Positions 18,837-24,943 of a stretch of DNA of 64,000 nt are shown in pieces. The translations under genes were made by a program, and so were the position numbers. Each line of letters starts with the position of its first letter. The stretch's first letter is position 1. The DNA is from Halorubrum aethiopicum (GTDB taxonomy: Archaea; Halobacteriota; Halobacteria; Halobacteriales; Haloferacaceae). The notes under the pieces are model-generated. The model searched no databases and was not told the DNA's origin. It worked only from the letters and a program-made list of their open reading frames with translations. The stretch spans positions 124,001 to 188,000 of the forward strand of contig NZ_LOAJ01000001.1 of assembly GCF_001542905.1 (NCBI RefSeq). Reading direction: 5' to 3'.

Positions 18837-20324
18837 ATGAGCACACGGACCGCGAGCGAGGAGCGGGCGGTCGTGATCGGGCTGGAGGTCCACGTCCAGC
18901 TCGAGACCGACACCAAGGTCTTCTGTGGCTGTTCGACGGAGCCGGCCGACGACGAGGAGCCGAACACGCGCACCTGCCCGACCTGTCTCGGGCTGCCGGG
19001 CGCGCTGCCGGTCCTCAACGAGGCCGCCGTCGAGAGCGCGGTGAAGATCGGGAAGGCGCTCGACGCCGACATCCCCGAGACGACCACGTTCCACCGGAAG
19101 AACTACTACTACCCCGACCTGCCGAAGAACTTCCAGCTCACCCAGTACGACGCGCCGATCTGCGCCGACGGCGAACTGGAGGTCTCCGTCGACGGCGAGC
19201 GCCGTACCATCGGGATCACCCGCGCGCACCTCGAGGAGGACCCGGGCAGCATCCAGCACGCGGGCGGCTCGATCGAGTCGGCGACCCACACCCTCGTGAA
19301 CTACAACCGCGCGGGCACGCCGCTGATGGAGGTCGTCACCGAGCCCGACTTCCGGTCGCCGGCGGAGACGCGCGCGTTCCTCGCGAAGCTCGAGGAGGTG
19401 CTCGAGTACCTCGGCGTCTTCGACGCGACGCGGGACGGGAGCCTCCGCGTCGACGCCAACGTCTCGCTCGTCGACGCGGACGAACTGGGGGAGGACGGCT
19501 CCGTCCCCGAGGAGGTCCTCGCCGACGCCAACCGCGCCGAGGTGAAGAACATCTCGAGTCACAAGGGCGCGGAGAAGGCGCTCGCCTACGAGATCACCCG
19601 CCAGCGAAACGTGCTCCGGCGCGGCCGCGAGATCGAACAGGAGACCCGCCACTGGGACGAGGCGCGCGGCGTCACCGTCTCGATGCGCTCGAAGGAGGCG
19701 GAGAAGGACTACCGCTACTTCCGGGAGGCGGACCTCCCCGCCCTGGAGGTGGCCGACTGGAAGGAGTCGATTCCGATCCCCGAGCTCCCCGACGCCCGCC
19801 GCGAGCGCTTCCGCGACGAGTACGGGCTCGACGCCGAGGCCGCCTCGAAGCTCACCTCGACGAAGGAGGTCGCGGACTTCTTCGAGGACGTCGCCGGCGA
19901 GTACGACCCCGAGCTCGCGGCGACGTGGGTCGCCGACAACCTGCTCGGCGAGCTCAACTACCGCGAGCTCGAGATCACCGACGTGACCGACCGGCTCGAC
20001 GAGTTCAAGCGCCTGATCGAGTTGGTCGCCGCCGAGGAGCTGACGGTGAAGAACGCCGAGGAGGTCGTCCTCCGCGAGATGCTCGACGAGGGCGACGACC
20101 CCGACGCGATCGTCGACCGCGAGGGGCTCGGCAAGGCCGAGTCCGGCGAGGTCGAGACCGCGGTCGAGGCCGCGATCGACGACAACCCCGACGCCGTGGC
20201 CGACTACCACGACGGCGACGACGGGGCGATCAACTTCCTCGTCGGCCAGGTGATGCAGGCGACCGGCGGGAGCGCCGACCCCGGCCAGGTGAACGGGCTG
20301 CTGCGCGAGCGGCTGGACGGGTGA
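18837..20324 (+). CDS. gatB: Asp/Glu-tRNA amidotransferase subunit B
   Basis: Subunit B of the GatCAB transamidase, which converts Asp-tRNA(Asn) and, where present, Glu-tRNA(Gln). The protein has 495 residues. Signatures are VIGLEVHVQLET, FCGCSTEPADDEEPNT, CLGLPGALPVLNEAAV, FHRKNYYYPDLPKNFQ and LEEDPGSIQHAGGS, with the YqeY-like tail domain to the end. The ATG at 18837 has an A/T box (TTTAGG near 18807) about 30 bp upstream; the longer frame to 17301 is antisense to the phosphoribosyltransferase. GatA and GatC are not in the window. Confidence 0.95.
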   Translation: MSTRTASEERAVVIGLEVHVQLETDTKVFCGCSTEPADDEEPNTRTCPTCLGLPGALPVLNEAAVESAVKIGKALDADIPETTTFHRKNYYYPDLPKNFQLTQYDAPICADGELEVSVDGERRTIGITRAHLEEDPGSIQHAGGSIESATHTLVNYNRAGTPLMEVVTEPDFRSPAETRAFLAKLEEVLEYLGVFDATRDGSLRVDANVSLVDADELGEDGSVPEEVLADANRAEVKNISSHKGAEKALAYEITRQRNVLRRGREIEQETRHWDEARGVTVSMRSKEAEKDYRYFREADLPALEVADWKESIPIPELPDARRERFRDEYGLDAEAASKLTSTKEVADFFEDVAGEYDPELAATWVADNLLGELNYRELEITDVTDRLDEFKRLIELVAAEELTVKNAEEVVLREMLDEGDDPDAIVDREGLGKAESGEVETAVEAAIDDNPDAVADYHDGDDGAINFLVGQVMQATGGSADPGQVNGLLRERLDG

Positions 20325-20352: not shown

Positions 20353-20580
20353 ATGGAGGTGACCGTCGACGTCGTCGGCGGCGACACGGAGACGTACGCC
20401 GTCGACGACGACGCGACCTACGCCGACCTGATCCGTGCCGCGGGCTTTCACCCCCAGGAGGCGTCCGTCCTCGTCGAGGGCTCGCCCGTCCCCGGCGACC
20501 GCCCCGTCGACGCCGACCGGGTGCGGCTGCTTCGGCTGATCCGAGGCGGGACGACCGGACTCGCCGCCGCGGGCGAGTGA
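20353..20580 (+). CDS. samp2: ubiquitin-like small archaeal modifier protein (SAMP2 type) with C-terminal extension
   Basis: A 75-residue beta-grasp protein. SAMP2 of Haloferax is a 66-residue sulfur carrier for tRNA thiolation and a protein modifier attached through its C-terminal Gly-Gly. Here VEVVG-like MEVTVDVVGG, DDDATYADLIRAAGF and VDADRVRLLRLIRGG match that family, and the Gly-Gly sits at 65-66, where the family ends. Nine more residues follow (TTGLAAAGE). Family members must expose Gly-Gly to be adenylated, so this protein would need trimming first or would be inactive as a carrier. It follows gatB by 28 bp. Confidence 0.85.
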   Translation: MEVTVDVVGGDTETYAVDDDATYADLIRAAGFHPQEASVLVEGSPVPGDRPVDADRVRLLRLIRGGTTGLAAAGE

Positions 20581-20584
20581 GAGC

Positions 20585-21052
20585 GTGACGGACGTCGACG
20601 ATCCCGGTCCGCTCCCCGCGGGGGTCGCGATCGAGTCGGCGACGCCCGACGACCGGCTCGACGTCCTCCGCGTGCTCGACGCCGCGATGCTCGAGACCGA
20701 CGCCGCCGCCCTCCACGCCCGGATCGACGCCGGCGACGCCCTCGTCGCGCGCTTCGAGCGGACCGGCTCCGTCGTCGGGGCGCTGGTGTTGACGCGGCCG
20801 GAGCCGGAACGACGCCACGTCGACGCGGTCGCGGTGCGCCGCCAGCGCCGCGGCCGGGGGATCGGGTCCGCGCTCGTCGCGCGCGCGGTGCGGGACGCGC
20901 GGGCCGAGTCCGGCGTCGACGCCGTCACCGCGACGTTCGACGCGGATCTGACGGAGTTCTACGCGGACCTCGGGTTCTCGATCGAACCGACGGGGGACGG
21001 CCGCGCCAGGGGCCGGCTGACGGTGGGATCGGCGACCCCGGACGACGCGTGA
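20585..21052 (+). CDS. GNAT-family N-acetyltransferase
   Basis: Predicted acetyltransferase, 155 residues, GTG start 4 bp after the samp2 stop, so probably one transcript. The acetyl-CoA binding motif A is VDAVAVRRQRRGRGIGSALV (about 80-99), followed by the motif B region DADLTEFYADLGF. The substrate is unknown; the samp2 neighbour may hint at protein modification but that is speculative. Confidence 0.8.
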   Translation: MTDVDDPGPLPAGVAIESATPDDRLDVLRVLDAAMLETDAAALHARIDAGDALVARFERTGSVVGALVLTRPEPERRHVDAVAVRRQRRGRGIGSALVARAVRDARAESGVDAVTATFDADLTEFYADLGFSIEPTGDGRARGRLTVGSATPDDA

Positions 21053-21612: not shown

Positions 21613-22320
21613 TTAGTAGATCAGCTCGTCGTCGTTCTCGATCATGTACAGCGCGCGGGCGGCGATGTTGACCGCGTGATCGCCCACGCGCTCGAGGTCG
21701 CGGACCGCGAGCAGCGCGCGCGAGACCTCGTCGAGCGCGGCGGCCAGCTCGTCGGCGTCCGCCTCGACATCCCGGTCTCCGCCGGCCGCCTCGACCCGCG
21801 CGCGGTCCGCCTCCAGCAGGTCGCGGACGACCGCCTCGCTGGCGCGACGACACCGCTCGTCGAGGTCGTCGTCGCGGGCCGCGACCGCCCGGCAGGCGTC
21901 GGGGTCGCCGGCCTCGTACGCGGCCACCGCGTCGGCGACCATCCCGCCCGCCTCCTCGCCGATCTCCCGGAAGTCGACGGCGGGGTGGAGCCCGCCGTCG
22001 TCGCCGCCGTAGCCCGCGAGGTTGGTCGCGAGGTCGGCGACGCGCTCGAGGTCGGTGATGACCTTGAACGAGGCCGTCACCAGCCGGAGGTCGCCGGCGA
22101 CGGGCTGCTGGAGCGCGAGCAGCTCCGTACACTCCTCTTCGAGCCCCAGGTAGCGCTCGTTGACCTCGTAGTCGCCCTCGATGACCTCCCGAGCGAGGTC
22201 GTCGTCGCCGGTCTCGGCCGCCTCGAGCGCGGCGTCGTACCGCTCGAGGACCAGATCGCCCATGCCGACGACCTCGGTTCGGAGGTCCTCGAGCCGCCTC
22301 TGGTAGCTCTCTCGGGGCAT
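21613..22320 (-). CDS. phoU: phosphate uptake regulator PhoU
   Basis: Cytoplasmic protein of 235 residues built of two PhoU three-helix repeats. Typical stretches are LRTEVVGMGDLVLERYDAAL, LVTASFKVITDLERVADLAT and LLAVRDLERVGDHAVNIAA. PhoU restrains the Pst transporter when phosphate is ample. It is the last gene of pstS-pstC-pstA-pstB-phoU and starts directly at the pstB stop. Confidence 0.92.
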   Translation of the reverse strand: MPRESYQRRLEDLRTEVVGMGDLVLERYDAALEAAETGDDDLAREVIEGDYEVNERYLGLEEECTELLALQQPVAGDLRLVTASFKVITDLERVADLATNLAGYGGDDGGLHPAVDFREIGEEAGGMVADAVAAYEAGDPDACRAVAARDDDLDERCRRASEAVVRDLLEADRARVEAAGGDRDVEADADELAAALDEVSRALLAVRDLERVGDHAVNIAARALYMIENDDELIY

Positions 22321-23157
22321 CTAGCCGAACTTCCCCGTGATGTAGTCCTCGACGCGCTGCTCTTCGGGGTCCTCGAAGATCTTCGCCGTGTCGTCGTACT
22401 CGACGAGCCGGCCGCCGGTGAGGAACACGGCGGTCCGGTCGGAGATGCGGGCCGCCTGCTGCATGTTGTGCGTGACGATGATGACGGTGTACTCCTCGGC
22501 GAGCCCGTCGATCAGGTCCTCGATCTTCGAGGCCGCGACCGGGTCGAGCGCCGAGGTGGGCTCGTCCATCAGGATGACCTCGGGGTCGGGCGCGATGGCG
22601 CGGGCGATACAGAGCCGCTGTTGTTGCCCGCCCGACAGATCGAGCCCGGAGGAGTCGAGCTGGTCTTTCACCTCGTCGTACAGCGCCGCGGCCTTCAGCG
22701 ACTCCTCGACGCGCTCGTCGACGTCGCCCTCGTACCCCTGGATCTTCAGGCCGTACGCGACGTTGTCGCGGATCGACTTGGGGAAGGGGTTCGGCTTCTG
22801 GAACACCATCCCGATCTTGCGGCGCAGCGCGACCGGGTCGACGTCGTCGTCGTAGACGTTCTTGCCGCCGAACTCCACGTCGCCCTCGACGCGGCAGACG
22901 TCGATCATGTCGTTCATCCGATTGATACACCGGAGGAACGTCGACTTGCCGCAGCCGGAGGGCCCGATGAGCGCGGTCACCCGCTTTTCGGGGATCTCGA
23001 TCGACACGTCGTCGATCGCCTGTTCGTCGCCGTAGTAGACGTTCAGGTCACGCGCCGCGACCGCGGTTCGCGCCGCCCTCGATCGTGCCGAGCCGGTCTC
23101 GACCTCCGTGGTGATGAGCGATTCGTCTCCCGTCGTGTCGGATGATGTGTTACTCAT
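22321..23157 (-). CDS. pstB: phosphate ABC transporter ATPase PstB
   Basis: ATPase of the high-affinity phosphate transporter, 278 residues. Walker [14 protein letters not shown]-loop region [11 protein letters not shown], signature [17 protein letters not shown] and Walker [15 protein letters not shown] are all intact. The ATG at 23157 was chosen because it lies 2 bp before the pstA stop; an in-frame start at 23178 would overlap pstA. It works with PstC and PstA in the membrane. Confidence 0.96.
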
Positions 23158-23158
23158 G

Positions 23159-24943
23159 TTAGTTCCCCCGTTCCGCACGGTTCCGCAACAGGATCGCCGT
23201 CCCGTTCATGCCGACGAGGATGATGAGAAGCGTGATAACGCCGGCGGCGACGACGCCGTACCGGAAGTCGGCCTGCGGGAAGTTCGCCCACGCGTAGATC
23301 TGCATCGGCATGGCGCTGAAGCGACTGAAGAGGCTGCTCGGCGCGCTGAACACGGTCGTCGCCGCGCCGACCATGATGAGCGGCGCGGTCTCGCCGATCG
23401 CGCGGCCGAGCGCGAGGATCGTCCCGGTGAAGATCCCCGGCAGCGCCTCCGGGAGGACCACGTTCTTCGTCGTCTGCCAGCGCGTCGCGCCCATGGCGTC
23501 GGACCCCCGTCGGAGGTCGTCCGGAACCGACCGGATCGCCTCCTGGGCGGAGATGATCGTGATCGGCAAGATGAGAAGCGACAGCGTCAACGCGACGGTC
23601 ACCGCCGTGCCGAAGCCGAACCCGAGGAGGTTCGCGAACAGTCCCAGCCCGAGGAGGCCGTAGACGACCGACGGGATGGCGGCCAGGTTCGCGATGTTGA
23701 TCTGTAACAGCCGCGTCAGCGAGCCGAGAACCCCGGTCTCCGGCATGTACTCCTCCAGGAAGACGGAGGTGCCGACGCCGAGGACGAACGACAGCACCGC
23801 GACGAGCGCGATGATGATGACGGAGCCGACGATGGCCGGGTAGAGCCCGGCCTCCGCCGGCGTCCGGGAGGGGGCCTCCGTGACGTAGTTCGGATCGAGC
23901 CACGGGTCCGGCGCCGGGACCCCCCACGCCTCGACGATCAGCGCCCCGGCGACCACGCCGGCGGCGAGGAGAAGCGGGAGGCCGAGCCCGACGACCCCGT
24001 CGCCGCCCTCGACGACGCGGGAGACGTACACCGCCGTCGGCACGCCGGTCAGCGCGAGCACGAGGAGGACGGTGGGGGCCGGCAGCCCGGCACCGGCGGC
24101 CAGGAACCCCCCGGCGGCGGCGACGGCGAGCGGGAAGCCGGCGACGAGGATCGCGACGGTTCGACCGCTTCGGTCGGCGACGAGGACCGCCCCGGCGGCC
24201 GCGACCGGGATCGCGATCGTCCAGAGGTAGATGACGAGGTCCGACGGGTACACCGTGACCACGCGGCGGAGGAACGTCGCGGCGACGACTCCGACGAGCC
24301 CGACCGGGATCGCGGCCGTCGCCGCCCGGTCGTCGGAGCGCCATCGGCCGTAGGCGTACAGCGCGAGGCCCGGCAGGACGCCGAGGGTGTACGCGAGGAA
24401 CCACACCAGCGCGTCGAACACCAGGAAGAGGGTGCCGACCGCGAGGCCGATCGCGGCCCCGCCGACGAGCCGGCCGAGCAGCCCGAACCCGACCGCCGCG
24501 ACGCGCCCGCGGCTGCCGACGTACGCGAGGTACGCGGTCACGGGGGCGGCGACGACGAAGAGGTACGCGAGCTGCCAGTTGAGTCGCGGGATCGGCGCGA
24601 CGACCGCCTCTATCGCGGTGAAGAGCACGGCGACGGCGACGAGCCCGCCGCCGAGCGCGCCGAGCGCGCGACGCGTGACCGCGGGGTCGTTCGCGCTGTA
24701 CAGACAGAACGCGAGGAAGGGAACGACGAGCGTGAGGGAGTAGGTCAACAGCCACTCGGGGCTGGCGTTCGCTAGGTCGAAGGCGTCGACCGAGACGTAC
24801 ACGAGCAGGACGCCGAGCGCGACGAGTCCGAACACGCTCGCGCCGAAAGAGAGGTACTCGAAGAGGAACCCGCGCGTCCGGCTGACCCGGTCGAACTCGG
24901 TCGCGTTCGCGTTCTCGGTGGGGTTCGGGGTGTCCGTCGCCAT
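23159..24943 (-). CDS. pstA: phosphate ABC transporter permease PstA, long form
   Basis: Membrane subunit of 594 residues. The C-terminal 300 residues carry the permease core ([29 protein letters not shown] and the ATPase-coupling motif [20 protein letters not shown]). The first 280 residues add about eight more hydrophobic helices, twice the size of bacterial PstA. The start overlaps the pstC stop by one base. The long N-terminal half may be common in haloarchaea, but its role is unclear. Confidence 0.92.

Follow-up and report, generated by a model that had tools for sequence, protein, structure and literature searches.

The samp2 gene of Halorubrum aethiopicum encodes a ubiquitin-like protein (Ubl), SAMP2, with nine residues beyond its Gly-Gly pair. 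Comparison of haloarchaeal sequences suggests that this product is most probably a precursor trimmed by the desampylase JAMM1, and that the extra residues are a tolerated by-product of a stop codon located at the start of a translationally coupled GNAT acetyltransferase gene. The gene was studied within a 64,000-nucleotide stretch of the genome (the window), whose numbering is used below.

The samp2 open reading frame extends from an ATG at position 20353 to 20580 on the forward strand and encodes a precursor of 75 amino acids. Its product matches the PF21965 profile (E = 3.5e-28; 98.2 bits against a cut-off of 27) and the NCBIfam equivalog model NF041919 (101.6 bits; cut-off, 70), as well as the PDB chains of Haloferax volcanii SAMP2 (HVO_0202; 2l32 and 4hrs, at 3e-21 and 2e-20). 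The mature domain would comprise residues 1 to 66 (20353 to 20550), with the profiles covering residues 1 to 63 or 1 to 66, and it ends in RLIRGG. Gly65-Gly66 (GGC GGG, 20545 to 20550) is followed by the tail TTGLAAAGE (ACG ACC GGA CTC GCC GCC GCG GGC GAG, 20551 to 20577), which is the proposed propeptide, and by a TGA stop (20578 to 20580). The Haloferax protein is alike in family, core, RLI-x-GG end and the E1 family that serves it (UbaA), but it stops at Gly-Gly, whereas the H. aethiopicum protein runs nine residues further. The 4hrs chain terminates at a Gly-Gly that aligns with Gly65-Gly66, and the tail lies outside the PF21965, NF041919 and PDB matches. The encoded protein thus does not end in Gly-Gly. 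A terminal Gly-Gly is better regarded as a property of the mature form than as a definition of the family, because it is no requirement of the curated models and is missing from nearly half of the haloarchaeal SAMP2s that were read (counted below). A genome-wide search at E<=10 found no second SAMP2 in H. aethiopicum, so the earlier note's suggestion that a canonical copy elsewhere might do the work finds no support.

An AlphaFold2 model of SAMP2 has pLDDT values of about 84 to 89 over residues 1 to 60, with secondary structure elements in the order b-b-a-b-b-b that is expected of a beta-grasp fold; the predicted fold agrees with the sequence match to 2l32 and 4hrs. In the model, the Gly-Gly is within a flexible stretch beyond the folded core, and the tail is disordered (pLDDT below 50 at residues 72 to 75).

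Tails of this kind are also found in other species. The nearest relative (G116), whose SAMP2 is 95% identical, carries the tail TTGLVAAGE in the same frame and before the same TGA. All 49 SAMP2s read in the Halorubrum group have residues past Gly-Gly; in 47, there are 2 to 25 of them, and the other two (L010 in G133, and L008 in G137, Halorubrum sp. 48-1-W) continue in an uninterrupted frame into the GNAT gene that follows. SAMP2 was detected in 157 of 170 genomes of the family, and its 3' end was read in 150; with further genomes from the order, the ends read total 230. Beyond Halorubrum, some lineages stop exactly at Gly-Gly, others have tails of 2 to 12 residues, and others have fusions. 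Altogether, 105 of the 230 haloarchaeal SAMP2s are tailed. The post-GG tail is therefore genus-wide in Halorubrum and recurrent in haloarchaea. A stop codon can be gained or lost through a change of one base, so a sequencing or frameshift artefact that masks a true stop right after Gly-Gly was considered. The shared frame, tail and TGA of the nearest relative and the tails of all 49 genus members rule this out for practical purposes. The earlier note's description of a clean-frame TTGLAAAGE extension was accurate, and the stop directly after Gly-Gly that it named as grounds for rejection occurs in none of the genus relatives whose 3' ends it proposed to compare.

Conservation differs sharply on the two sides of the Gly-Gly. 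The pair is retained at the domain end of all 105 tailed SAMP2s, and codon 66 in these genes uses all four glycine codons (GGC 40, GGG 36, GGA 18 and GGT 11). Between genus members of the same length, mean amino acid identity is 0.48 in the tail and 0.85 in the core, and identity at the first and second codon positions of the tail (0.65) is lower than that at third positions of the core (0.77). These comparisons indicate that the tail is unconstrained and that the Gly-Gly is under selection. An internal Gly-Gly that is never exposed would have no reason to persist, so the pair is probably exposed at some stage.

The same data bear on two other views of the tail. It might never be removed, and Halorubrum SAMP2 might be a protein that cannot be activated and has another role; the earlier note had likewise raised a carrier unable to be activated, and a search of the literature found no experiment on any Halorubrum SAMP2. 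This is very improbable, because the Gly-Gly, the RLI and the whole core are conserved while the tail drifts. In addition, the invariant pair lies beyond the folded core, where the chain is flexible, the protein is the sole SAMP2 of its genome, and UbaA is kept. Alternatively, the tail could be functional and selected in itself, as a localisation or degradation signal or as a gate for regulated activation. The first two tail residues are indeed more restricted than later ones: the first is A, S or T in 46 of 49 Halorubrum proteins, and the second is T in 33 of 49. However, lengths range from 2 to 25 amino acids with little conservation, and shared ancestry or a P1' preference of the protease may account for the restricted first positions, so a function of this kind appears improbable, if a little less so than a tail that is never removed. 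Because the sequences are related and other genera begin their tails with R, G, V, N, E or D, the A/S/T bias is not counted in favor of any particular protease.

The enzymes that trimming by JAMM1 and activation by UbaA would require are encoded in the H. aethiopicum genome. The JAMM metalloprotease that the earlier note proposed to look for is present as JAMM1 (L162:1471-1950), which scores above the cut-off of the NF041370 'desampylase' equivalog model (141 bits; cut-off, 130), matches PDB entries 5ld9 and 5lda of PfJAMM1, and has an intact motif, HSHPAGPARPSGMD (HSHP...S..D). The E1 enzyme UbaA (L164:1429-2241) matches the NF047750 equivalog (528 against a cut-off of 450). A second JAMM protein (L163) is of the JAMM2 type. 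As judged from sequence, H. aethiopicum thus combines an extension past a conserved Gly-Gly with a cognate JAMM protease in the same genome, as is expected of a JAMM-processed Ubl precursor.

The distribution of tails points to JAMM1 more specifically. A JAMM1 query run against 391 near-complete haloarchaeal genomes found the gene to be absent from 102. In addition to the family set, in which JAMM1 status was assigned by genus, SAMP2 was examined at the order level in 30 genomes lacking JAMM1 (1 to 3 per genus, picked before tails were seen) and in 50 with JAMM1. Tailed SAMP2s occur in 0 of 42 genomes without JAMM1 and in 105 of 188 with it. The association has an exact P of 0.0024 in a genus-level test stratified by family, which corrects for kinship at the family level only, and a Fisher P of 9e-5 when genera are pooled; the genome-level value of 2e-13 ignores relatedness and should not stand alone. 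A tree-based test of independent pairs on SAMP2 cores yielded one supported pair and was not significant, and the tree of this 66-residue protein is poorly resolved. In a PF14464 search, the 30 order-level genomes lacking JAMM1 gave only JAMM2-like or other weak matches (best per genome 4e-8 to 3e-12), whereas ten JAMM1 genomes gave matches at 2e-20 or better. By these sequence searches, tails are found only where the protease occurs, with one exception, a 79% complete genome (G078) that has a SAMP2-GNAT fusion and no JAMM1-type match. Many genomes have JAMM1 and no tails, which implies that JAMM1 is not kept solely for tail removal. Many haloarchaeal lineages that retain SAMP2 and a JAMM2-like protein have lost JAMM1 or never gained it.

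Perhaps another enzyme, such as JAMM2, a carboxypeptidase or a housekeeping protease, removes the tail, and the link to JAMM1 is indirect. JAMM2-type proteins are present in practically all haloarchaeal genomes, including this one, and short unstructured tails should be easy substrates. However, a universal protease would permit tails everywhere, yet none of the 42 genomes lacking JAMM1 has one. Moreover, the fusions of 125 to 219 residues described below would need an endoprotease that cuts after Gly-Gly, which is an activity shown for HvJAMM1 (PMC4443979). Removal by another enzyme is accordingly unlikely, but it is the least unlikely of the alternatives.

A candidate origin of the tail is apparent in the neighboring gene. 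A GNAT acetyltransferase gene (20585 to 21052, forward strand; PF00583, 5.1e-12) begins with a GTG that is 4 nt past the samp2 stop, and across the genus, samp2 is either followed by a GNAT gene or fused with one. The base directly before the TGA is G in 46 of 47 unfused Halorubrum samp2 genes. In 42 of 46 relatives, the GTG that overlaps the samp2 stop is the first codon of a frame longer than 100 codons, which is read as the GNAT gene. In H. aethiopicum and its nearest relative, the GNAT start is four bases further on, and the G-TGA context is kept. Such a GTGA overlap of stop and start is typical of translational coupling, so the GNAT gene is likely coupled to samp2; the position of the samp2 stop seems to be set by the start of the next gene, and the codons in between would be a by-product. 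The gatB gene (18837 to 20324, identified from its translation) is upstream in the same direction and provides operon context outside the proposed mechanism. Genes for PhoU-like and PstB-like proteins, recognized from translations only, are on the strand opposite to the samp2 operon (21613 to 23178 of the window, reverse strand).

Moving the stop one step further would result in in-frame fusions, and these exist. SAMP2-GNAT fusions comprise the two Halorubrum cases (L008 and L010) and all nine genomes read in genus g18, and all 11 GNAT fusions match both the PF21965 and the GNAT profiles. In lineages g15, g17 and g28 and, in another family, g37, SAMP2 is instead fused to a peroxiredoxin-like domain; both fusions scanned (L058 and L090, from g15 and g28) match the AhpC/TSA peroxiredoxin profile. 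Gly-Gly is retained at the junction of both kinds of natural fusion. An AlphaFold2 model of a SAMP2-GNAT fusion has two ordered domains connected by a disordered joint (residues 65 to 83) that includes the Gly-Gly. The predicted disorder of the tail and of this joint is compatible with access by a protease and is weak evidence for it. Most of the SAMP2-GG-peroxiredoxin-like fusions (L058, L079, L083, L085, L090, L253 and L286) have a C-x-x-C motif, for example, FLCGNC or YCTNC. The peroxiredoxin fusions may connect SAMP2 with redox or sulfur chemistry.

According to the proposed mechanism, UbaA could not act on pro-SAMP2 as long as the C-terminal Gly66 is locked in a peptide bond. JAMM1, a JAMM/MPN+ desampylase, would hydrolyze the Gly66-Thr67 bond (the invariance of Gly-Gly in tailed proteins favors this site) and free TTGLAAAGE. 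The exposed Gly-Gly could then be adenylated by UbaA for use in conjugation and tRNA thiolation. The tail would have no sequence-specific job; it would have arisen when the samp2 stop codon shifted to where the coupled GNAT gene begins, and only lineages that retain JAMM1 would tolerate it. The same drift of the stop, taken further, may have produced the SAMP2-GNAT and SAMP2-peroxiredoxin fusions, which JAMM1 would split likewise.

Other ubiquitin-like proteins of the genome agree, at the sequence level, with this picture of post-GG extensions. Paralogous proteins of the MoaD/SAMP1-3 type in the genus have extensions of 1 to 4 residues past Gly-Gly (for example, T, A, S, CET, GEP and GGT), and L216 of H. 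aethiopicum ends bare in VSGG. Another of its proteins (L215, C1:2898925-2899185 and downstream) is a MoaD-type Ubl (FPPVAGG) that continues in frame into 136 further residues ending in KAMRAGG. L215 seems to resemble the halobacterial GG-ending protein of the arCOG06308 type described by Makarova and Koonin, and similarly long extensions occur in several relatives. A ThiS-like beta-grasp protein (L217, C1:1654780-1655049) ends in MFCC and not in Gly-Gly, as the literature notes for arCOG00539.

The proposed precursor has counterparts in other systems. In eukaryotic ubiquitin-ribosomal protein fusions, a Ubl is also joined through Gly-Gly to a downstream protein and split from it by a protease, but other deubiquitinase families are used, and the partners here are GNAT or peroxiredoxin domains. 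In thioquinolobactin synthesis in Pseudomonas, the residues past Gly-Gly of the sulfur-carrier Ubl QbsE are removed by the JAMM protease QbsD; there, the pathway makes a bacterial siderophore, and the two genes share an operon. The pro-ubiquitin of Caldiarchaeum subterraneum has a 9-residue propeptide that is removed by Rpn11/JAMM before use (PMC5654768), and CsSAMP precursors are cleaved by CsJAMM (PMC6043591). These proteins also have a tail past Gly-Gly that a JAMM protease cuts off ahead of activation by E1 (PMC5654768, PMC6043591), but they belong to a distant lineage in which ubiquitin is located in an E1/E2/E3 operon, and their tail sequences are unrelated. HvJAMM1, a haloarchaeal JAMM1, cuts a linear SAMP1-MoaE fusion precisely after Gly-Gly in vitro and also cleaves it in vivo, yielding an active product (PMC4443979). 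That substrate was engineered and carries SAMP1, whereas here the tail of SAMP2 and its fusions to GNAT and peroxiredoxin domains are natural. HvJAMM1 is known as a desampylase, an enzyme that undoes conjugation. Release of fused ThiS/MoaD by JAB proteins was predicted by Iyer et al. in 2006 (PMC1779556), and Makarova and Koonin in 2010 noted two Ubl associations, that of arCOG00535 with a GNAT gene in Halobacteria and one with peroxiredoxin in Thermococcales (PMC2948915).

It is thus already established that JAMM proteases cleave tailed or linear archaeal Ubls. A search of open-licence papers found no description of haloarchaeal SAMP2s with tails, none of SAMP2 fused to GNAT or peroxiredoxin domains and none of the co-distribution of tails with JAMM1; it found Halorubrum and SAMP2 paired in a species list only. 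The earlier note's remark that processing is not known for archaeal SAMP2 therefore stands for naturally tailed haloarchaeal SAMP2, but not for tailed archaeal Ubls in general, which include the CsSAMP precursors. Its suggestion of a precursor that needs a protease, as with eukaryotic ubiquitin precursors, gains support from the comparative data presented above.

Haloferax SAMP2 already ends in Gly-Gly, so no role of HvJAMM1 in SAMP2 maturation would be visible in that organism. If the proposal is correct, the modifier SAMP2 itself would depend on JAMM1 in Halorubrum and many of its relatives, which would give this protease an essential-maturation role. A stronger version is more tentative and falls somewhat short of an even chance: maturation of tailed and fused Ubl precursors might be the selected reason that haloarchaea with tails cannot lose JAMM1, the fusions might be true archaeal counterparts of ubiquitin fusions that are split into equimolar modifier and partner enzyme, and JAMM1 might thereby gate the entry of SAMP2 into conjugation. 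For experimental work, the full annotated open reading frame of a tailed species would be an inactive form in assays, if the proposal holds. Tails of 1 to 25 residues and whole-domain fusions provide a natural series of candidate JAMM1 substrates for mapping specificity, and the fusions would represent ubiquitin-fusion-like precursors in archaea that lack E2 and E3 enzymes.
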